DNA from: Solibacillus sp. FSL H8-0523
GTDB taxonomy: Bacteria; Bacillota; Bacilli; Bacillales_A; Planococcaceae
Reading direction: 5' to 3'
Assembly: GCF_038051985.1 (NCBI RefSeq)
Contig: NZ_CP150291.1
Span: 496,001-560,000 of the forward strand
Length of the DNA: 64,000 nt
Part shown: positions 4,233 through 36,696 of the stretch, one piece after another
Position numbering within the stretch: position 1 is the stretch's first letter
Layout of the letters: each line of letters begins with the position of its first letter
Made by a program: the position numbers and the translations under genes
The notes under the pieces: generated by a model
What the model was told of the DNA's origin: nothing
The model's input: only the letters and a program-made list of their open reading frames with translations
Database searches by the model: none

Positions 4233-4262
4233 GCTGAGCATCTCTTTTTAAGAACTTGATAA

Positions 4263-6609
<2,347 letters not shown>

Positions 6610-7490: not shown

Positions 7491-7540
7491 TTATTTCTTG
7501 TAGTGGGGAATAATCACTTGTTTTTCACTACAAGAAATAA
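7491..7540. repeat. Perfect 15-bp inverted repeat
   Basis: TTATTTCTTGTAGTG (7491-7505) and its exact complement CACTACAAGAAATAA (7526-7540) flank a 20-base spacer. No T-tract follows on either strand, so it is not a typical terminator. A separate palindrome ATTTCCTAGGAAAT (7542-7555) starts one base later. Confidence 0.85.
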
Positions 7541-7701
7541 AATTTCCTAGGAAATAGTATACGTTTGCCATCTTACAAAGTCGGGGTAGTTAATTAAAGA
7601 TGATACTTTTCTGTGAAATTCTGTCTATTCACATTAACTACCTGCGCTGCGTATTATAAAATAATAGCTATTTCTATAAAATTAGCTTAAAATAGTGATT
7701 T

Positions 7702-9284: not shown

Positions 9285-10190
9285 ATGAAAAAAATTCTAC
9301 TTTCTATTTTGTTACTTAGCTTATTCGTTATTCCGCTTTTTATGCTAAAAAAACTACCGAATTCATCAAAACAGATGGAGGAACCATTCGAAAACATGTG
9401 CCAGCTATTCATTTCGATCAATGACACATCGATTCCGATAGAAGACTATTTAATCGGTGTGCTTGCGGGAGAAATGCCGGCTAGTTTTCATGAAGAAGCG
9501 CTAAAAGCTCAGGCAATCGCGGCGAGGACATATGTATTGAAGCAAACTAACAATGGACAAACTGCCATCAGCGCAACAACAGCGCATCAAGTATTTAATG
9601 ATCAGCAAATGCGCGAAGAAAAGTGGCAAGCCGCTTTCGCGCAAAATGAACAAAAGCTCGAGCAAGCCGTAAACGAAACCAAGCAGCAAGTACTGACCTA
9701 TCAAGATCAACTCATCACCGCCATGTTTCATGCATCCTCCTACAAACAAACAGAATCCGCACAAAATTATAGCGACAATGTTCTTCCTTATTTGCAATCG
9801 GTACCGACATCAGAGCTACTTGAACCACAACAACTTATCTTCTCCTATAACGAGCTAAATACGCAGCTACAACAAAATTTTACAGCCAAAGAGTATCAAC
9901 AAGCCAAAATCCTAAAGAACAGTTCTGAGCGTATAGAGTCCGTTACAATCGCAGGTAAAACATGGTCTGGGCGAGAAATCCGGGAATACTTAAATTTACG
10001 GTCAACACATTTCATGTGGGAGCAGGCAGCAGCGGGTATCCAAATTACTACGCTTGGTTATGGGCACGGGGTAGGGATGAGTCAAGAGGGTGCAAATGCG
10101 ATGGCACAAAGAGGCGCAACCGCTGAAGATATTTTGGCGCACTATTATCCGAATACAAACCTACAAACTTTTGATTATTGTGAAAAATGA
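9285..10190 (+). CDS. spoIID: Stage II sporulation protein D (lytic transglycosylase)
   Basis: Peptidoglycan hydrolase that, with SpoIIP and SpoIIM, drives engulfment of the forespore by the mother cell. 301 residues: an N-terminal membrane anchor (ILLSILLLSLFVIPLFML), then the SpoIID domain with the catalytic glutamate in LAGEMPASF (Glu63), followed by the conserved LKAQAIAARTYVL. The C-terminus carries GYGHGVGMSQEGANAMA, typical of the family. No Shine-Dalgarno precedes the ATG. The sigma-E -10 box ends only 5 bases before it, so the message may be leaderless. Short for the family but complete in its motifs. Confidence 0.93.
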   Translation: MKKILLSILLLSLFVIPLFMLKKLPNSSKQMEEPFENMCQLFISINDTSIPIEDYLIGVLAGEMPASFHEEALKAQAIAARTYVLKQTNNGQTAISATTAHQVFNDQQMREEKWQAAFAQNEQKLEQAVNETKQQVLTYQDQLITAMFHASSYKQTESAQNYSDNVLPYLQSVPTSELLEPQQLIFSYNELNTQLQQNFTAKEYQQAKILKNSSERIESVTIAGKTWSGREIREYLNLRSTHFMWEQAAAGIQITTLGYGHGVGMSQEGANAMAQRGATAEDILAHYYPNTNLQTFDYCEK

Positions 10191-10191
10191 T

Positions 10192-10221
10192 GTTTAACTT
10201 CGGTACTTCCTGTCCACACTT
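10192..10221 (+). promoter_or_regulatory. Possible sigma-F/G type promoter of spoIIQ
   Basis: GTTTA (10192-10196), exactly 15-base spacer, then GTCCACACTT (10212-10221). This compares with the forespore consensus GYATA and GGnnAnAnTW, with one mismatch in each box. spoIIQ is sigma-F dependent in B. subtilis. The match is suggestive, not decisive. Confidence 0.4.
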
Positions 10222-10239
10222 TTTCTTGAGGTGATGAAC

Positions 10240-10887
10240 ATGAGAGAAGTTAAACGAAAGCCTTCTCAAAAACTGATGGAGCGACCGTGGTTTTGGCCGG
10301 TTGTTTATAGCAGTATTGCATTGATGATTGTCGGCGTAATTTTGAGCTACAACGCTTTGTACAATAGTCAACAGGATCAGGTCGCATTAGAAGAGCAACC
10401 AGCAACCAATCAAGAAACCATTTTGCCAACCGCAACAAAGCTAGAAACATTGAAATATCCGTTTAAAGAGGAATTGTTAAATGAAGTGGCCATCTTACAT
10501 GAATTTTATGATGTCACAGCCGACGAAGCAACACGAGAAAATGCACTTTTAGTATTCAACCAAGTGTTTACAACATCAACAGGTGTAACGATTGCGATTA
10601 ATAGTGAGCCGTTCGAAGTGGTCGCTGCGATGAGTGGCGAGGTGACAAAAGTGAAGATGGACGTCTTTACAGGTAATCAAATTACAATCACACATCCAAA
10701 TGGCATGGAAACGCGTTATAACTCCGTTGCAGATATTTTAGTAAAAGAAGGCGACAAAGTAACGCAAGGAGAGCCAATCGCCAAATCACAGGAAAATGAA
10801 TGGAATGAAGCGGCAGGCATCCATTTGCACTTTGAAGTTCTAGAAAATGGAGTTCTTGTGAATCCAAGGAAGTTTTTAGCGTTCTAA
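10240..10887 (+). CDS. spoIIQ: SpoIIQ-like M23 (LytM) family engulfment protein
   Basis: Forespore membrane protein that zips to mother-cell SpoIIIAH across the intermembrane space. The start is ATG 10240, since GTG/ATG at 10231-10236 lie in the Shine-Dalgarno TTGAGGTG. The result is 215 residues: a basic N-terminus, one membrane helix (about 17-40), and a C-terminal LytM domain (about 105-205). The domain keeps the GIHLHFEV motif (His195, His197). The segment that normally holds the other zinc ligands (HxGxDIA) reads TSTGVTIA, so His and Asp are lost. This suggests a non-catalytic domain, as is known for B. subtilis SpoIIQ. Shorter than the B. subtilis protein (283 residues). Confidence 0.85.
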   Translation: MREVKRKPSQKLMERPWFWPVVYSSIALMIVGVILSYNALYNSQQDQVALEEQPATNQETILPTATKLETLKYPFKEELLNEVAILHEFYDVTADEATRENALLVFNQVFTTSTGVTIAINSEPFEVVAAMSGEVTKVKMDVFTGNQITITHPNGMETRYNSVADILVKEGDKVTQGEPIAKSQENEWNEAAGIHLHFEVLENGVLVNPRKFLAF

Positions 10888-12522: not shown

Positions 12523-13362
12523 ATGTTTAAAGGGTTTTATACAGTAGCAACAGGAATGGTTGCACAACAACGTAAGACAGAAATTTTAACGAATAATATG
12601 GCGAATGCCAGTACACCTGGTTTCAAATCAGATCAAACGACAATTCGCTCGTTTCCAGATATGCTTATGTCAGCAGTTGGCTCGACGAATATCCCAACTG
12701 AAAAAGGCTTTGCACTAAAAAAATTAGATACAATCGGCGCATTAAACGCAGGTGTATACTTACAAGAAACAATGCCAGACCAAGCACAGGGACAAATTTT
12801 TTCAACAGGTTTAACGACAGACGTGGCGCTGATTAATGGCAATCTGCCAACAGACGAAACATCGGGTAATGCAGGTCAAGTATTCTTCCGTTTAGAAAAC
12901 GAAAATGGCACAGAAAGTTACACGCGTAACGGGAACTTCACAATGGACGGCCAAGGTAACTTAGTAAATCCAATGGGCTTATTCGTGCTAGATGCAAACG
13001 GCAATCGTATGCAATTTGCAAACGATAATATCCGCATTGATTCAACAGGTGCTATTTTTGATGAAAATAATGCACAGGTTGGGACATTAGGCGTAGCATT
13101 TTCAAATAACCCAGACGTATTAGTAAAGCGAGATAACGGCCTTTACAATACGCTAGATGGTGTAGACTTACCTACAGCTTACGGACAAGCGGGCGTGGAA
13201 TTCTCGATGCAGCACCAATATTTAGAAGGTTCTAATGTAGATGCCGCAAGAGCAATGACAGAACTTATGACAGCTTACCGTGCATTCGAAGCCAACCAAA
13301 AAGTATTACAAGCGTACGATAAGAGTATGGATAAAGCTGTAAATGAAATCGGACGTGTCTAA
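12523..13362 (+). CDS. flhO: Flagellar rod/hook-basal body protein FlhO (FlgF-like)
   Basis: Axial flagellar protein of the FlgF/FlgG family, 279 residues. The N-terminal rod motif (QRKTEILTNNMANASTPGFKSD, written here only as the family landmark) and the C-terminal helix (DAARAMTELMTAYRAFEANQKVLQAYD) are the coiled-coil ends that polymerise in the rod. It starts at ATG 12523, 6 bases after GAGGTG; the GTG at 12514 falls inside that site. Followed by its partner flhP. Confidence 0.92.
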   Translation: MFKGFYTVATGMVAQQRKTEILTNNMANASTPGFKSDQTTIRSFPDMLMSAVGSTNIPTEKGFALKKLDTIGALNAGVYLQETMPDQAQGQIFSTGLTTDVALINGNLPTDETSGNAGQVFFRLENENGTESYTRNGNFTMDGQGNLVNPMGLFVLDANGNRMQFANDNIRIDSTGAIFDENNAQVGTLGVAFSNNPDVLVKRDNGLYNTLDGVDLPTAYGQAGVEFSMQHQYLEGSNVDAARAMTELMTAYRAFEANQKVLQAYDKSMDKAVNEIGRV

Positions 13363-13468
13363 TTTCGTTTAGCCAAATCCACACGCAATATCGCCGAGTA
13401 AAAATGGACTATGAGCAATTATTTTCATTCAGCGGCGAGTTTACGTATAATAGGGAGGTAACTAGTTT

Positions 13469-31900: not shown

Positions 31901-32245
31901 GCTAGAACTGTTGAGTTAAATGGAGATCTTCTAGCACCAGTTATCTCTTCACCATCTTATACAGCTGGTGCAGTAGGTTCTAAACAGGCAGACATTTCAA
32001 TAACATCTGATGAAGCTGGTACGGCTTACTACTTAGTAGTTGCTAGTGGTGCTGCAGCACCAACTGCAAGTACCGTAGTTGCTGGTGGTGTTAGTGAAGC
32101 TGTAGTTGCTGGGACAGCTAAAACTAAAACATTGACATTTGCTGCAGATGCAACAACTTATGATGTTTATGTGGTTGTAAAGGATGCTACTAATAATTTA
32201 AGTGCAGTTACTAAAGTTATTGTATCAACTCCGGCAGCACTGTAA
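28922..32245 (+). CDS. S-layer protein 1 (three SLH domains, Ig-like repeats)
   Basis: 1107-residue secreted protein. The signal peptide is GRKLFATTATAALVASAIVP...ASA, cleaved about 30/31. Three SLH domains follow at about 31-85, 92-143 and 150-202, ending in the motifs VTRAEAA, LTRSEAA and ITKQDFA, which bind pyruvylated SCWP. Then comes an Ala/Glu/Lys coiled coil (about 210-300) and several Big_5/SbsA-like Ig domains recognisable by repeated phrases of the type VVTFNRAVD, VLFSEPI, VKFTKSL, VEFSEAMA. The start is ATG 28922 with AGGAGG upstream. It is paralogous to the gene at 51383: signal peptide, SLH order and coiled coil match. Ala/Thr/Val/Lys-rich composition and a strong third-position preference suggest high expression. 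Confidence 0.93.
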   Translation: MAKTNKGRKLFATTATAALVASAIVPVASAAEVNDINSVASYAKDAVQDLVDRGVIEGDAKGNFNPRNSVTRAEAATIFAKALDLESTGSINFSDVKSGAWYYDAIAAAVNNGIFQGQSASNFNPSGNLTRSEAAIIYVNAFGLEGSDDLSSFKDASAVKAWAKEAIQIAVANGVLKGDDKGNLNPNANITKQDFAVMFARAEAAVVDPAADLKEALETLKTTSEKLAEKVTAENVAAAKTAVADAKEAITAVEEALKAAQEAKVVTEEEVKATEEAITAAKAALEKAEKAVAGYEESLTVAKVESVSATNLKQVVVTFNRAVDKSTASEVVNYAITGANSPEIAAASVSEDGKSVTLTLKDVFVNQNEYKLSVYNIKAGDKVLNEKDLVFKPLDNTVPTVAAVQALGNKTIRVLFSEPIKPAQTSQFLIDGKVVVGSIQTTGNAVIIKLSSALTDGEHTITAEGTQDFNNFKVVKADTKFNVVEDKTAPTVTSVVSASFEKVVLKFSEPVEQVFASNVYWLQGAAKKQASSVKQLADDTFEFTFVGDNKLVYTTDLFVTNVKDYSGNVIDKDTKVQVTPVIDQTRPEVISAGFVKNSSNKKVVIKFTKSLDLDSAKKVANYVIKDKDGKVQLISSSVDTSNDKEVTITLLNSLKDNTEYTLTVNGVSDNTTLKNVILPYTTTLSVSDVTPPTLSTVTRLNDKQLYVEFSEAMATSGDGSVVDSSKYTITDTSVSPNKTLTPASYNVTGDAKGVILTFNDNLPTAGNVSFKVQLVKDVAGNYIANLVAPGTVITNTATTVDKVTAVATDKVEVTFTKALQSLNQGDFSVEGHEIAYSELSANGKKATFTLKTKLPEDVKNSSGDELKLIVTGTPSSVDILGEKIGTIGAKDITDEISATVKAIAAADLSGTKIKITFNEAINIGTLSEVKSDFVVEDNLGNPLSITGVAVSGTDNDELVLTLSGAVIAATISAKDVRFVTDRATDANTIADIEARTVELNGDLLAPVISSPSYTAGAVGSKQADISITSDEAGTAYYLVVASGAAAPTASTVVAGGVSEAVVAGTAKTKTLTFAADATTYDVYVVVKDATNNLSAVTKVIVSTPAAL

Positions 32246-32290
32246 TATCAAGTACCGAATGCATAACTAACTGCATTTCCGGAATTGATG

Positions 32291-32327
32291 AAAGGCTCTA
32301 CATGGCTTCGGCTGTGTAGGGCTTTTT
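32291..32327 (+). terminator. Terminator of S-layer gene 1 with UUCG tetraloop
   Basis: CTCTACATGGC (32296-32306) pairs with GCTGTGTAGGG (32311-32321) around TTCG, extended by A-T and G-C pairs, with a T-tract at 32323-32327. It lies 45 bases after the stop. Confidence 0.9.
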
Positions 32328-32401
32328 GCCGGTTATACAAATAATGATGCATAAACAATTTTGTGTCACTACAATTAGAAGTTCTACGTAAGCCCGAAAT
32401 T

Positions 32402-32426
32402 TCGTGCACCGGGTGCAAAAACAATT
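32402..32426 (+). repeat. REP-like palindromic element, copy 1
   Basis: 25 bases differing by one substitution from the element at 34810-34834. Core GTGCACCGGGTGCA followed by AAAACAATT. Its position upstream of the yifB-RAYT pair and the second copy just downstream suggest a REP sequence recognised by the RAYT transposase at 34195. Confidence 0.7.
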
Positions 32427-32470
32427 CAGAAAATACACTACAATTTATGAATATGCATTGAGTGAAATCG

Positions 32471-32515
32471 AAGAAGCCCTATATGAGAGAAATCTTGTAT
32501 AAGGCTTCTTTTTTG
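32471..32515 (+). terminator. Second intrinsic terminator downstream of slp1/REP copy 1
   Basis: AAGAAGCC (32471-32478) pairs with GGCTTCTT (32503-32510) with a partly paired AT-rich interior (TATA/TATA), followed by a T-run to 32515. No gene between the first terminator and this one explains it. Confidence 0.7.
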
Positions 32516-32687
32516 TTATGTAGATGCCCCCGAAAAAATTTAGTTCACTGCGAATTTCCCTACAAAATTTCAATTTCCTCCAAAAACTTAAGTCAAACTG
32601 TCGATTTAGAGTTGTTAACAATTTCACTCTATTTGCATTTATTTCCCATATATTTTATGCTCAAAGAAAATGAAAGGGGCGAATGCT

Positions 32688-34202
32688 ATGATTTGTAGTG
32701 TTGGGTTAGAAGGGATGCGTGGTTATATCGTGAATGTTGAGGCGGATGTGCGCCTAGATAAGGAACAGTGTGTCATTGTAGGGCTGCCGGATGCTTCGAT
32801 GAAGGAGTCAAAGGAGCGGATTTTGAGTAATTTGCACTTGCTTGATCTTGATTTAACCTTAAAAAAGATTACGATTCACTTATCGCCTTCGGATAAACGA
32901 AAAATCGGCGTCGGCTATGATTGTGCGATGCTGCTTGCGGTGCTTAATAAAATGCTTGAAAACCCACTACCCATCAACGAACAAACCTGTGTGCTTGGTT
33001 CTTTATCGCTTCAGGGAGAAATCGTTGCTTTTCACGGACTGATGCCGTCACTTCAACAAGCGCTCCAGCTTGGCTTTAAGCGAATTTTCATTCCCCCAAT
33101 TGACACGAGCTTTCTTCAATTAAATGATGATATCGAAATCGTTGCGCTGAAAAATGTCGAGCAAATGTTCGATTATTTGAACGGCCAGCTCTCCCTTGCA
33201 ATGACTAGGTTGACAGTTGTAAAAGAACTAATTCCAGAGTCGAACTTTGACATGACGACAGATTTTAATAGTATCATTGGTCACGAAACCGCAAAGCGGG
33301 CGTTAGAAATTGCGGCAGCAGGTGGGCATCATGTGCTGCTTAGTGGTCCGCCAGGCTGTGGCAAAAGTATGCTGGCCGATGCCTTTCATACGATTTTTCC
33401 TGATATTATACATGAGCAAATGTTGGAAGTATACAGTATTTATCATTTAGCGAAGGAAGATGCGAGTTTTTCGCAGCGACCGAGCTACCGCGCGCCGCAT
33501 CATTCGTCCTCGGCTACATCACTAATTGGAGGAGGGACATATCCAAAGCCAGGTGAAATCTCACTAGCACACCGCGGTGTACTATTTTTAGACGAGCTGG
33601 GTGAATTTCCAAGAAAGGCGCTTGATATGCTGCGCCAGCCGCTTGAAAGGGGTGAGGTGACGATTAGTCGTGTTCGTCAAACGGTAACTTATCCTGCTGC
33701 GTTCACACTCATTGCGGCAACGAATCCGTGTCCATGTGGCTACTTTGGCTCAAACGAACGCTATTGCACCTGCTCGCCGCAGCAAGTAAAGGCATATCAG
33801 CAAAAAGTGTCTGGTCCGTTACTTGATCGCATTAATTTTTTCTTACAGCTTAAAAGTGTCGGCATGAGATCAGGCATTTCAGGTGAAAGCTCTGTCGTGA
33901 TTCGGCAACGTACAGCGCAGGCTCGTGAAATGCAGCAAAATCGCTATGGCCCCCATTTTTTGAACGGCAATGCCCCGTCTCATTTACTAGTAGAAGCCTG
34001 TGCGCTCACATCAGTTCAAAAGCAATATGTTCATGAAGTGTGCTATGCAAATAAGTGGAGCAACCGGACACAGCTAAAAATTTTACGCATCGCGCGCACC
34101 ATTGCGGACTTACAACAGCAAGAGGAATTACAAGAAGCGCATTTAGAGGAGGCCGTTTCATGGAAGCAAGATGCGTTAGTGGAGGGGAGCGTCCATGGGT
34201 AG
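32688..34202 (+). CDS. YifB/ComM-family Mg-chelatase-like AAA ATPase
   Basis: 504 residues from ATG 32688, 8 bases after AAAGGGG. The N-terminal Lon-protease-like (ChlI) domain has VGLPDASMKESKERI. The AAA core follows, with Walker A GPPGCGKS (about 220-227), Walker B GVLFLDELGEF, and ATNPCPCGYFG, which holds the family cysteines; the C-terminal Mg_chelatase_C region is complete. In Gram-negative bacteria ComM is a branch-migration helicase in natural transformation, and in Firmicutes the role is unproven. The last 8 bases overlap the RAYT transposase start, so the two are coupled. Confidence 0.9.
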   Translation: MICSVGLEGMRGYIVNVEADVRLDKEQCVIVGLPDASMKESKERILSNLHLLDLDLTLKKITIHLSPSDKRKIGVGYDCAMLLAVLNKMLENPLPINEQTCVLGSLSLQGEIVAFHGLMPSLQQALQLGFKRIFIPPIDTSFLQLNDDIEIVALKNVEQMFDYLNGQLSLAMTRLTVVKELIPESNFDMTTDFNSIIGHETAKRALEIAAAGGHHVLLSGPPGCGKSMLADAFHTIFPDIIHEQMLEVYSIYHLAKEDASFSQRPSYRAPHHSSSATSLIGGGTYPKPGEISLAHRGVLFLDELGEFPRKALDMLRQPLERGEVTISRVRQTVTYPAAFTLIAATNPCPCGYFGSNERYCTCSPQQVKAYQQKVSGPLLDRINFFLQLKSVGMRSGISGESSVVIRQRTAQAREMQQNRYGPHFLNGNAPSHLLVEACALTSVQKQYVHEVCYANKWSNRTQLKILRIARTIADLQQQEELQEAHLEEAVSWKQDALVEGSVHG

Positions 34203-34773
34203 AAAAAAACGGCTGTGGCACCCACAGTACTTTGATCATGTTGTGATGCGAGGTAATAACCGACAAGTGATTTTTGCTGAACAGCAGGACTTTGCTGAAT
34301 TTTTCCGTGCGCTTCACTACACTTACGACAAATATCCATTCGAACTCCTTGCCTATTGCCTTATGAATAATCACTATCATCTTTTAATCCTCAGCAAAAC
34401 TCCACTCAGTAAAACAATGATGCTTCTTAATCGCCGCTATAGTGATTACTACAAAAAGAAATACCGCTATTCAGGTCATCTATACGAAAATCGCTATTAT
34501 TCCGATATGGTGTTAAGTGCGCAGGGGATTCTTGAAGTGAGCCGTTACATCCACCAAAATCCAATCCGTACAAAAACCCCACTAGTAAACGAACTCGAGC
34601 ATTACCCATACTCAAGCTTTCAATATTATGTGGCGCCTAAAAAAGCTCCCGTCTATTTAAATCCCTTTGCACTCGTACAATATTTTCCACTTGAATCAGA
34701 GCGCACATTAGAAAATTATATTACCTATTGCAGCATCATAGAAAAAACAGTCGTACACGAAATGCCATTGTAA
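34195..34773 (+). CDS. REP-associated tyrosine transposase (RAYT, IS200-like Y1)
   Basis: 192 residues. The N-terminus HPQYFDHVVMRGNNRQVIF is the standard Y1/RAYT opening. The HUH motif is in CLMNNHYHLLI (His60-Tyr61-His62), and SRYIHQNPIR near residue 118 is the RAYT landmark with the probable nucleophilic tyrosine (Tyr118). RAYTs cut single-stranded REP hairpins and are usually single-copy, non-IS genes flanked by REPs. Here a palindrome lies 37 bases downstream and a near-identical one upstream of yifB. Excellent Shine-Dalgarno GGAGGGGAG; the start overlaps the yifB stop by 8 bases. Confidence 0.9.
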   Translation: MGRKKRLWHPQYFDHVVMRGNNRQVIFAEQQDFAEFFRALHYTYDKYPFELLAYCLMNNHYHLLILSKTPLSKTMMLLNRRYSDYYKKKYRYSGHLYENRYYSDMVLSAQGILEVSRYIHQNPIRTKTPLVNELEHYPYSSFQYYVAPKKAPVYLNPFALVQYFPLESERTLENYITYCSIIEKTVVHEMPL

Positions 34774-34809
34774 TATTTAGTGCTGAGGAAAAATTATACA
34801 GGTGGAATA

Positions 34810-34834
34810 TCGTGCACCGGGTGCACAAACAATT
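34810..34834 (+). repeat. REP-like palindromic element, copy 2
   Basis: The core GTGCACCGGGTGCAC (34812-34826) is a perfect palindrome with a central G and 7-bp arms, followed by AAACAATT. It matches copy 1 at 24 of 25 positions. It ends exactly where recognisable ISL3 transposase sequence begins. Confidence 0.75.
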
Positions 34835-35255
34835 ATTTAACACGTTATACAGAAATGTCGCCTGTCTTAAAAGAAGCATATGAATTGAAACAGGCGTATT
34901 GTGAGTGGTTTGACCAAGCAAAAAATGAATCAGAAATTTCGGTGATTAAAGAGAGATTACTTCAGTTTTATAAGCAAGTAGAAGCGTCTGGCATTCCAGC
35001 GTTTAAGAAAGCGATTTAAACGTTCAAGAACTGGCAAACAGAGATTTTGAACAGCTTTTCATTTGGCTATTCGAATGGATTTTTAGAAGGCATTAACAAT
35101 AAAACAAAAGTGATGAAACGGAATGCATATGGCTTCAGACGTTTCGATCACTTTAAGGCAAAGATATTATTAAATTTAAAGTATAAAAATATAGGTGGGC
35201 ATGTAGGGGGAAATCGGTTTGGAAATTATTTCACCCCAACATTTGACTTAGAGCC
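34834..35255 (+). pseudogene. 3' remnant of an ISL3-family transposase
   Basis: Reading from YLTRYTEMSPVLKEAYELKQ through FYKQVEASGIPAFKKAI, one TAA (35017-35019), then in the same frame TFKNWQTEIL and SNGFLEGINNKTKVMKRNAYG. This is the C-terminal DDE-transposase region of ISL3 elements, including the catalytic glutamate in GFLEG. The N-terminal three quarters are absent. A single nonsense codon (lysine position, AAA to TAA is the simplest change) splits the rest. TTTCACCCC...TTTGACTTAGAGCC near 35229-35255 resembles the ISL3 right end. A dead relic, truncated at the REP element. Confidence 0.8.
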
Positions 35256-35263
35256 TAAAAATC

Positions 35264-35308
35264 AAATCAAAAAAACAGCCCTACACAAAATTACCATTGT
35301 GTAGGGCT
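35264..35308 (-). terminator. Terminator of the SLH gene at 35350
   Basis: AGCCCTACACAA (35277-35288) and TTGTGTAGGGCT (35297-35308) form a perfect 12-bp stem. The A-rich tract before it (35264-35275) gives Ts on the minus strand. Confidence 0.85.
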
Positions 35309-35349
35309 ATTAGTATTGTGTGAAGACTAGTTACAACAGATCCAGCTCA

Positions 35350-36696
35350 CTATTTAATCAACGAAAATATCTCTTCTCTAGAAAAATAATCAATATCTGA
35401 AATTTCTAGGATAACATAAGTACCATTATCTTGACGTTTTAAAATAGCATTGCCGTAATAATGATCGCCATAAATAAATGCGTTCTTTTCTTTTTCAGTA
35501 AAATCAGTCCATAAATGATCACTAATATTACCAAAGTAAAGATCAGACCCCTCATTTCTATAATAATCTAAATTATAGTTTGTGTACTTTACTTCATAAT
35601 AGCCATTTTGAATATGGTTCACATACGTTATGTTTCGATAAGGAACATAAATTGAGCCGGGGAATTCATAACCGGGTACATAATAGTAGCCATTTTTATA
35701 GAAAATATTCATTTCAACGCCGTGGTCTTTAGACAATCCTGTCTTTAGTTGGCTTGGTTGTAGATCAATATTGAAATATTGCTTTAGTATAGCTTTTGCA
35801 TGTTTCTCTGAGTAGACAAAGTAATAATCGTCGCCAATTTGTTGTTGGCCTCCAACAGTTAGCAGTCCATATGCGCTGGCATCAAGTAAATAATCCGAAA
35901 CAGTCATACCTCTAGACTCTTCTAAGAACCATGTAGTTCCTAGTAATTTAGTCATCTTTAATAACTCTTGTTTACTTATAAGTGCGTGCGTATTTTTTGA
36001 AAGATTTGTCGGTTCAATTTGGTAATATTCAGCTTGAAATGCTAGAGATGCGTCCGAATCACTTGGATAATGGTTTGTAATAGCAGAATCTTCACTACGA
36101 TAATTTTTTAAAGATGTGTCAATTCGTTTCATAAAGGAAGCAACTTGTTGGCGCTTTAATGGATTGTAATAACCAAATTTTTCAATAGTAGTTCCTGTTG
36201 AATATTGGTTGTTAGTGATGTTGTACTTTAATAAAAATTGAACAGCACCTTCTAAATTATAGTGTTCACGATCGATTAGGAAAGTTAAAACCATAGCGAA
36301 ATGTTCGCGGTCAATTGGTTTATTACGCAATGAAATATCGGAATATCCAAATAACGGGACTTTATAATCAGCCATGATGTTATAGTACGTATCAGACCAA
36401 TGTGTTTTTTCATTAGGCAATTTGTAAGAAGTCGATTTTAATTGGAAATATTCAGCAAAAATCTTCACTAATTCTGCTTCAGTTATATTGCCACCTGGAT
36501 TGAATAGGTTATTTGCCTGCCCATTGACAATGCCCTTTTCTTTTGCCCATAAAATATCATTGTAATGAGGATTTTCTTTTTTTACGTCTTTAAACGTTGC
36601 TGAATTGCTGGCTGCGTCACTAGTGATCGTTGCTAAATTAAATGCAAAAATCAAAATGACTAAACAAGATAAAACCTTACATAATTGACTTTTCAT
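35350..36696 (-). CDS. Secreted SLH-domain protein, function unknown
   Basis: 448 residues with an N-terminal signal sequence (VLSCLVILIFAFNLATI, cleavage near SDAASN). SLH-type segments follow: SATFKDVKKENPHYNDILWAKEKGIV... with FNPGGNITEAELVKIF (about 33-85), a degenerate second one (about 95-145, PIDREHFAMVL), and a third ending NPLKRQQVASFMKRI (about 150-192). The remainder (about 200-448) is Tyr/Asn/Asp-rich and matches nothing I know. It is presumably wall-anchored through SCWP. Monocistronic, minus strand, against the orientation of most island genes. Confidence 0.8.
   Translation of the reverse strand: MKSQLCKVLSCLVILIFAFNLATITSDAASNSATFKDVKKENPHYNDILWAKEKGIVNGQANNLFNPGGNITEAELVKIFAEYFQLKSTSYKLPNEKTHWSDTYYNIMADYKVPLFGYSDISLRNKPIDREHFAMVLTFLIDREHYNLEGAVQFLLKYNITNNQYSTGTTIEKFGYYNPLKRQQVASFMKRIDTSLKNYRSEDSAITNHYPSDSDASLAFQAEYYQIEPTNLSKNTHALISKQELLKMTKLLGTTWFLEESRGMTVSDYLLDASAYGLLTVGGQQQIGDDYYFVYSEKHAKAILKQYFNIDLQPSQLKTGLSKDHGVEMNIFYKNGYYYVPGYEFPGSIYVPYRNITYVNHIQNGYYEVKYTNYNLDYYRNEGSDLYFGNISDHLWTDFTEKEKNAFIYGDHYYGNAILKRQDNGTYVILEISDIDYFSREEIFSLIK

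Follow-up and report, generated by a model that had tools for sequence, protein, structure and literature searches.

Introduction

IS21, Tn7 and Mu rely on DDE enzymes acting on double strands, and the groups into which RAYTs are sorted were reportedly defined by Bertels et al. in 2017, a definition known to us by way of Quentin et al. In the accessible part of one account (PMC11208146), IS21 with its IstA/IstB proteins, Tn7 and Mu follow a two-gene plan of a recombinase and an AAA+ ATPase. RAYT/TnpAREP genes, as the available portions of three papers present them (PMC6006769, PMC3116915, PMC8266576), are single-copy Y1/HUH genes with HUH and Y...NP motifs that are flanked by hairpin repeats, the REPs or REPINs, whose spread is called poorly understood in the available part of the last of these papers. 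Two related kinds are TnpAY1 subclass 2.1, or RAYT group 1, which has NHYH and YIH.NP motifs and for which the text at hand of Quentin et al. (PMC6006769) reports no REPs, and the TIRYTs, described in the excerpts of PMC3733652 as having terminal inverted repeats, many with GGGGWSAS.

The locus studied here lies in a 64,000-nucleotide stretch of DNA from Solibacillus sp. FSL H8-0523 (the window) and shares with RAYT/TnpAREP systems the single-copy gene, its motifs and the flanking hairpin repeats, which occur as inverted dimers in the window's relatives. It differs from them in that the window hairpin lacks the GT[AG]G foot of canonical REPs, the copies are few in the window genome and clustered at RAYT loci in the relatives designated g13, the RAYT gene is overlapped by a YifB gene, and the host belongs to the Bacillota. 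By eye, the motif set of the window RAYT fits subclass 2.1, as does the absence of tryptophan at a site where the other subclasses have one, whereas its REP-like flanks do not fit; these flanks are direct repeats of hairpin type, unlike the terminal inverted repeats of TIRYTs. In contrast to IS21, Tn7 and Mu, the predicted partners in the window are an HUH enzyme and a ComM-type ATPase. In our view the locus probably represents a relict RAYT-REPIN unit, one equipped with a dedicated AAA+ partner.

Organization of the locus

The first gene, yifB (32688 to 34202, forward strand), encodes a YifB/ComM-like AAA+ ATPase of a RAYT-linked lineage and scores 430 bits against TIGR00368 (cut-off 362). 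Its likely start at 32688 has GGGG 8 nt upstream, and the first ATG of the frame lies at 32670. TIGR00368, Pfam and a structure match agree on the YifB/ComM domain set in its three-domain order, and the closest solved chain is ComM 8rxd (E 3e-88). The motifs GPPGCGK, LFLDE and N346 are kept across 25 aligned YifB-RAYT pairs. Full-length homology and a common domain order link the protein to the YifB/ComM helicase (8rxd; PMC11612176, as far as its available text goes), and it is a candidate branch-migration helicase.

The second gene (34195 to 34773, forward strand; Pfam Y1_Tnp, E 4e-13) encodes a Y1/HUH transposase of RAYT type with intact catalytic motifs, NHYH (59-62) and YIHQNP (118-123), that are kept in alignments. 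The two genes, both open frames with intact motifs in the window genome, overlap by 8 nt, from the start of the transposase gene at 34195 to the yifB stop at 34202, just as the original prediction stated. Because the protein scores 64.2 bits against NF047646, where the NCBI model for REP-associated transposases requires 80, we call it RAYT-type and not a RAYT member; a profile of it with nine relatives matches E. coli TnpAREP 4er8 (E 9e-6). The locus does not fit an IS200/IS605 insertion sequence, as the genome holds one gene match to the window RAYT and the motif is Y...NP, not Y...Q.

Palindromic elements flank the two genes as direct repeats in one common orientation. Copy 1 (32402 to 32449, forward strand; 65.3 bits against R1, a covariance model of the palindrome and its ACAATT linker built solely from the window's genus and including copy 1) consists of an imperfect palindrome, GTGCACCGGGTGCAA, with a single arm base altered, and a linker, AAACAATTC...CACTACAATT. 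It continues as a longer element form through this ACAATT linker to about 32515, where it is closed by a terminator-like hairpin (32468 to 32515, forward strand; inverted repeat 32471-32488/32493-32510; DNA fold z -5.7). Copy 2 (34806 to 34834, forward strand; R1 29.8 bits over model positions 2-23) is a perfect 15-nt palindrome followed by AAACAATT, after which it loses its likeness to copy 1 where an ISL3-family transposase remnant begins (34835 to 35304, forward strand, a stretch judged by eye; the Pfam DDE_Tnp_ISL3 match, E 8e-13, covers 35047-35301). The predicted identity of 24 in 25 bases between the flanking palindromes was confirmed (32402-32426 and 34810-34834), and over 29 nt the two agree at 27 positions (32398-32426 and 34806-34834). 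GTAG is found only within the copy 1 linker (reverse strand TTGTAGTG), about 20 nt off the palindrome. An Rfam scan of 32200-35400 gave no match near gathering score.

YifB-RAYT pairing across relatives

In an order-level sample of 261 genomes, in which every row shown came from one family, a RAYT was found in 127 genomes and a YifB in 55; they share 48 genomes (Fisher p 3e-11, with related genomes not independent). Placed against the 151 RAYT matches listed, which come from 121 genomes, 43 of 67 YifB matches have a listed RAYT directly downstream. Near-full-length YifBs, with at least 450 aligned residues, lie directly upstream of a RAYT in 35 of 40 cases among the RAYT matches listed and within 5 kb of one in 38 of 40, three of these on the other strand; for the remaining two (in G174 and G206), no listed RAYT falls within 5 kb. 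The linkage goes beyond accident, and since YifBs of this lineage rarely stand alone (2/40 near-full-length ones), yifB is not, in these relatives, a gene that usually occurs without the transposase. The premise that RAYTs normally sit alone is largely true, since 108 of the 151 listed RAYT matches have no YifB match within 200 nt upstream, but it does not always hold.

A class-wide sample of 398 genomes, whose YifB matches split into two groups by identity, was used to look beyond the family; 101 listed non-family YifB rows, down to E 8e-89, were taken in, and no family rows. All seven listed YifBs outside the family at 45% identity or more have a RAYT neighbor, before the gene in four and after it in three, with an additional RAYT remnant after the YifB of G533. 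None of 94 housekeeping YifBs (42% identity or less) is RAYT-adjacent, a control that is partly weak as a RAYT match is present in just 8 of these 94 genomes, always on a contig other than that of the YifB. The genomes of 36 weaker listed non-family YifB rows, checked by eye, contain no RAYT match, and two genomes with a RAYT (G282 and G334) have a YifB whose place is not among the matches listed.

A quick maximum-likelihood tree separates the 40 lineage YifBs from 11 housekeeping Bacillota YifBs with an SH-aLRT value of 100 at a point where long branches meet; 38 of the 40 have a RAYT near, and L233 and L237 have none. The window lineage differs from these compared sequences also in mostly adjoining an HUH gene. 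The linked label switches 8 times across the RAYT tree, compared with a shuffled mean of 28, and the same YifB lineage therefore seems to have had several RAYT branches as partners; the window RAYT falls outside the main linked clade, which counts against our main reading. YifB and RAYT distances are correlated, with a Mantel r of 0.89 over 25 pairs and of 0.74 over the 20 from the family. Of the 30 junctions that could be assessed, with starts picked by alignment, 22 show an overlap of 1-14 nt, direct abutment or a gap of a single nucleotide, and the other 8 have a gap of 2-21 nt; the two genes are close together or overlap in relatives as well. Judged from these sequence comparisons, the YifB-RAYT pairing is old. 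Among the matches listed, no RAYT-YifB pairing is described in open-licence papers by title and abstract.

Unusual arrangements were also seen. Within the family, G162 has the reversed order, a RAYT before a broken YifB (C1:2830825-2832950). A second genus member, G005, carries a broken YifB with a RAYT of a distant branch at L117 (C13:730000-749000), probably a separate acquisition, whose neighboring genes look, by eye, like serine recombinases. Partial duplications, 97-99% identical, lie beside intact pairs at L258 (6323-6882 and 6872-7431) and L039 (2242-3297 and 4150-5203); they take in the 3' end of the RAYT gene or the 5' end of yifB, together with the sequence next to it.

The palindromic element in its own genome and genus

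Four strand matches of the palindrome occur in the window at up to 2 mismatches against 0.02 expected, which excludes a chance origin of the flanking copies. Across the 4.14-Mb genome, a single contig, the core GTGCACCGGGTGCA at up to 1 mismatch is found in both window copies and one flankless place, and the core with its flank at up to 3 mismatches only in the two window copies. R1 at E<=0.05 finds four places: both window copies, 3675234 (strong) and 3395110 (weak). Locally, then, this is nearly a two-copy element, close to the case of a palindrome occurring only twice. Cognate repeats in many dispersed copies, which some genomes of the genus g17 do have, are absent from the window genome with its about four. 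Because of this number, and because copy 2 ends at the ISL3 remnant, the system looks like a remnant in the window genome, from which the element family has almost died out. What holds of the proposed REP unit is the resemblance of its palindromes to REP/REPIN-like elements at relatives' RAYT loci; the GTAG foot does not.

Sixteen genomes of the window's genus carry 0-24 R1 copies each, G003 alone having none. The highest counts, 22 in G008 and 24 in G009, come from genomes without an intact RAYT, which counts against the main reading; weak partial RAYT matches remain in G009 and G002. In G009, the syntenic S-layer gene has three element copies in the 0.5 kb behind it and a further four within 9 kb, and an intact pair is absent. 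Such a distribution, with copies in 15 of 16 genus genomes and mostly without a RAYT, would be expected if the palindromes were regulatory or terminator-type elements of an ordinary kind, specific to the genus and belonging to the S-layer locus, and the pair merely lay between two of them, as would the run of copy 1 into a terminator-like hairpin, to which the tails of several genus copies are similar by eye. We nevertheless regard this explanation as unlikely, since elements related to them flank the pair in other genera, tail-less copies exist, and in the arrays inspected the genes run in both directions and the strong element matches in one. An integron-like cassette array was set aside as a candidate: the repeats are co-oriented but the intervening genes run both ways.

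Two further features of these regions are worth recording. Two secreted-protein genes of G009 (L116, at 9535-10398 and 12580-13443), very alike over the residues shown, lie in the region rich in repeats that follows the S-layer gene. A terminator-like sequence, CTCTACATGGCT...GTGTAGGGCTTTT, recurs behind S-layer genes and after some palindromic element copies (window 32265-32326; L116 7843-7899, 8266-8327 and 14205-14262).

REPIN-like elements at relatives' loci

Compared with control windows of the same genome, internal direct repeats are more numerous at 16 of 19 pair loci, and the other three, including the window, are ties. Among nine RAYT loci without an adjacent YifB, taken from named records, three Planococcus-group loci have 3-10 repeat pairs, and six from other Bacillota (L038, L045-L047, L049 and L050) have 0-3 internal repeats, the latter counting against our reading.

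The g13 element is about 146 nt long; its ends are inverted (CCCTGTG...CACAGGG), a hairpin occupies its center, and 10 of its 22 predicted pairs show two-sided change in at least one sequence. A model of it, R2, matches all 46 g13 genomes with 2-22 copies each. In the 11 g13 genomes that bear the pair, 149 R2 matches were counted and the best 72 listed; 52 of these 72 lie within 20 kb of the pair, against about 1-2 expected, and all 52, among the matches listed, are on the pair's strand. As R2 was trained on pair-locus elements and only its best matches were listed, this clustering is inflated, and 52 of the 149 counted is the safer figure.

A pattern search of nine pair loci, from g17 and two other genera, revealed REPIN-type units, GGTRCCTGTGCA...TGCACAGGYACC, of 69-157 nt. 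With the model R3, built on g17 sequences, copies are detected in 24 of the 41 g17 genomes, and their number reaches at least 76 per genome. All 11 genomes with at least 36 R3 copies have a RAYT, and none of the 16 genomes that lack a RAYT has more than 19 (Mann-Whitney p 0.014); 8 of 25 RAYT-positive g17 genomes have no R3 copy, which counts against the main reading. YifB presence makes no difference to R3 copy number (p 0.97; 9 versus 14 genomes), and we therefore reject a requirement for YifB in REPIN amplification. This comparison gives no support to the earlier suggestion of a joint helicase-nuclease module: REPIN number follows the RAYT, not YifB.

Independence of REPIN number from YifB also bears on whether the adjacency of the two genes is hitch-hiking, with a selfish RAYT and a passenger YifB kept by chance. 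The 108 listed RAYTs that have no YifB directly upstream, and the decayed YifB copies that are common, fit this account. It is harder to reconcile with a single YifB lineage that keeps company with several RAYT branches in three arrangements, RAYT after, before or divergent, and with genes that are close or overlapping, and we think it quite improbable.

Likeness of the window element to those of other genera was sought in both directions. R3, which was built without any sequence from the window's genus, matches the window at 32412-32531 on the reverse strand with E 0.005-0.006 in 495 kb; across 28 genus sources the window is its best match, the next two have E 0.08, and other element-bearing loci are unmatched. 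Of 26 element-bearing genus loci, only the window falls below E 0.05, which counts against the resemblance. R1 at E<=0.01 gave seven matches in 49 loci of other genera, representing six places (one was seen twice), one of them just upstream of yifB in L239, whose YifB is the tree sister of the window's. It found no match in 20 control windows, two of them from the window's genus, and none at E<=0.01 in 11 g13 pair loci. Since R3 at that threshold hits only the window among these genus loci and R1 finds nothing in g13, the cross-genus resemblance of the window element, as judged from these rough E-values, is weak, but it is specific.

At L265, a compact palindromic dimer, GGTACCAGGTTCTCATTGAATTCGGAATTGTTCCAGAACCTGGTACC, is repeated with variants round one pair, at 2496-2579, 2798-2854, 4246-4302 and 7492-7548 on the pair's strand (the reverse strand of the locus).

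Element orientation and proposed mechanism

The available text of Quentin et al. (PMC6006769) has IS608 and ISDra2 targeting the lagging-strand template, and that of Bertels and Rainey (PMC3116915) describes REP tandem arrays that are oppositely oriented on opposite sides of a Pseudomonas genome, so an earlier hint of REP orientation existed. In g13, with GC skew serving only as a proxy for replication direction, the modeled strand of the best element lies on the negative-GC-skew strand in 55 of 58 loci, L368, L373 and L376 being the exceptions; the majority coding strand predicts orientation less well (51/58). A low threshold for grouping loci by common flanks merged 53 of the 58, and three stricter thresholds were used instead; 15 of 18 groups agree at the loosest of these, and 34 of 37 or 52 of 55 at the others, adjoining stretches such as L296/L297 and L298/L299 possibly counting twice.

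In two single-contig g17 genomes, and on the premise that a contig begins close to the origin, orientation changes with the chromosome half without exception among the copies listed, in G215 (15/15) and in G224 (11/11; an assembly 83% complete and 9% contaminated). The five listed copies of G205 split by half too, with the sign reversed. The window's genus shows no clear orientation rule in a hand tally by best hit (16/26 loci), which counts against the main reading. Element orientation in g13 and two g17 genomes agrees with what lagging-strand-template transposition predicts.

For the relict RAYT-REPIN unit that we favor, the Y1/HUH enzyme would be the likely mobilizer of small hairpin elements, the REPINs, made of hairpin ends in inverted arrangement and ACAATTC linkers; two of these elements bracket the RAYT's own operon as direct repeats. 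The RAYT may act strand-specifically, cutting and joining these elements while they lie exposed in single-stranded form on the lagging-strand template and inserting them at replication forks. The YifB ring, whose role we only infer because REPIN number follows the RAYT, might aid it by melting or branch-migrating DNA, with amplification possible in its absence; this part of the scheme is put forward more tentatively. These relatives provide a multi-copy RAYT-REPIN system from the Bacillota whose signature can be read within the genome, in the link between element orientation and GC skew, and show an HUH transposase-type enzyme with an AAA+ partner lineage of its own.

A stronger proposal, doubtful at present, makes YifB and RAYT the two components of one machine for single-strand transposition, in which a ComM/MCM-like ring would open or migrate DNA at replication forks while the HUH enzyme would excise hairpin REPINs and insert them on the lagging-strand template. 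If true, an AAA+ protein would here assist an HUH enzyme, in a bacterial counterpart to the ATPase partners of IS21 and Tn7 and to helicase-linked HUH transposons, and REPIN spread would leave a footprint of replication polarity.

The pair itself is head-on by GC skew in 17 of 27 cases overall and in 11 of 11 in g13, so that outside g13 its orientation is not tied to skew. This lack of a general rule speaks against the whole stretch, from one REP through yifB and RAYT to the other, moving as a mobile composite, and no clean pair of empty and filled sites was found at the G009 locus, the one inspected for it. Elements directly bracket the pair, as in the window, at L231, L236 and L242, the distribution is patchy, G170 has two pairs and decayed extra copies exist elsewhere, all of which suit a composite; it seems to us a possible but doubtful reading. 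The best-ranked YifB matches on plasmids (the best 15 of 51 records) and on phages (the best 10 of 27) reach about 40% identity at most, which again weighs against it. In the plasmid search, the RAYT gave weak matches on four plasmids.
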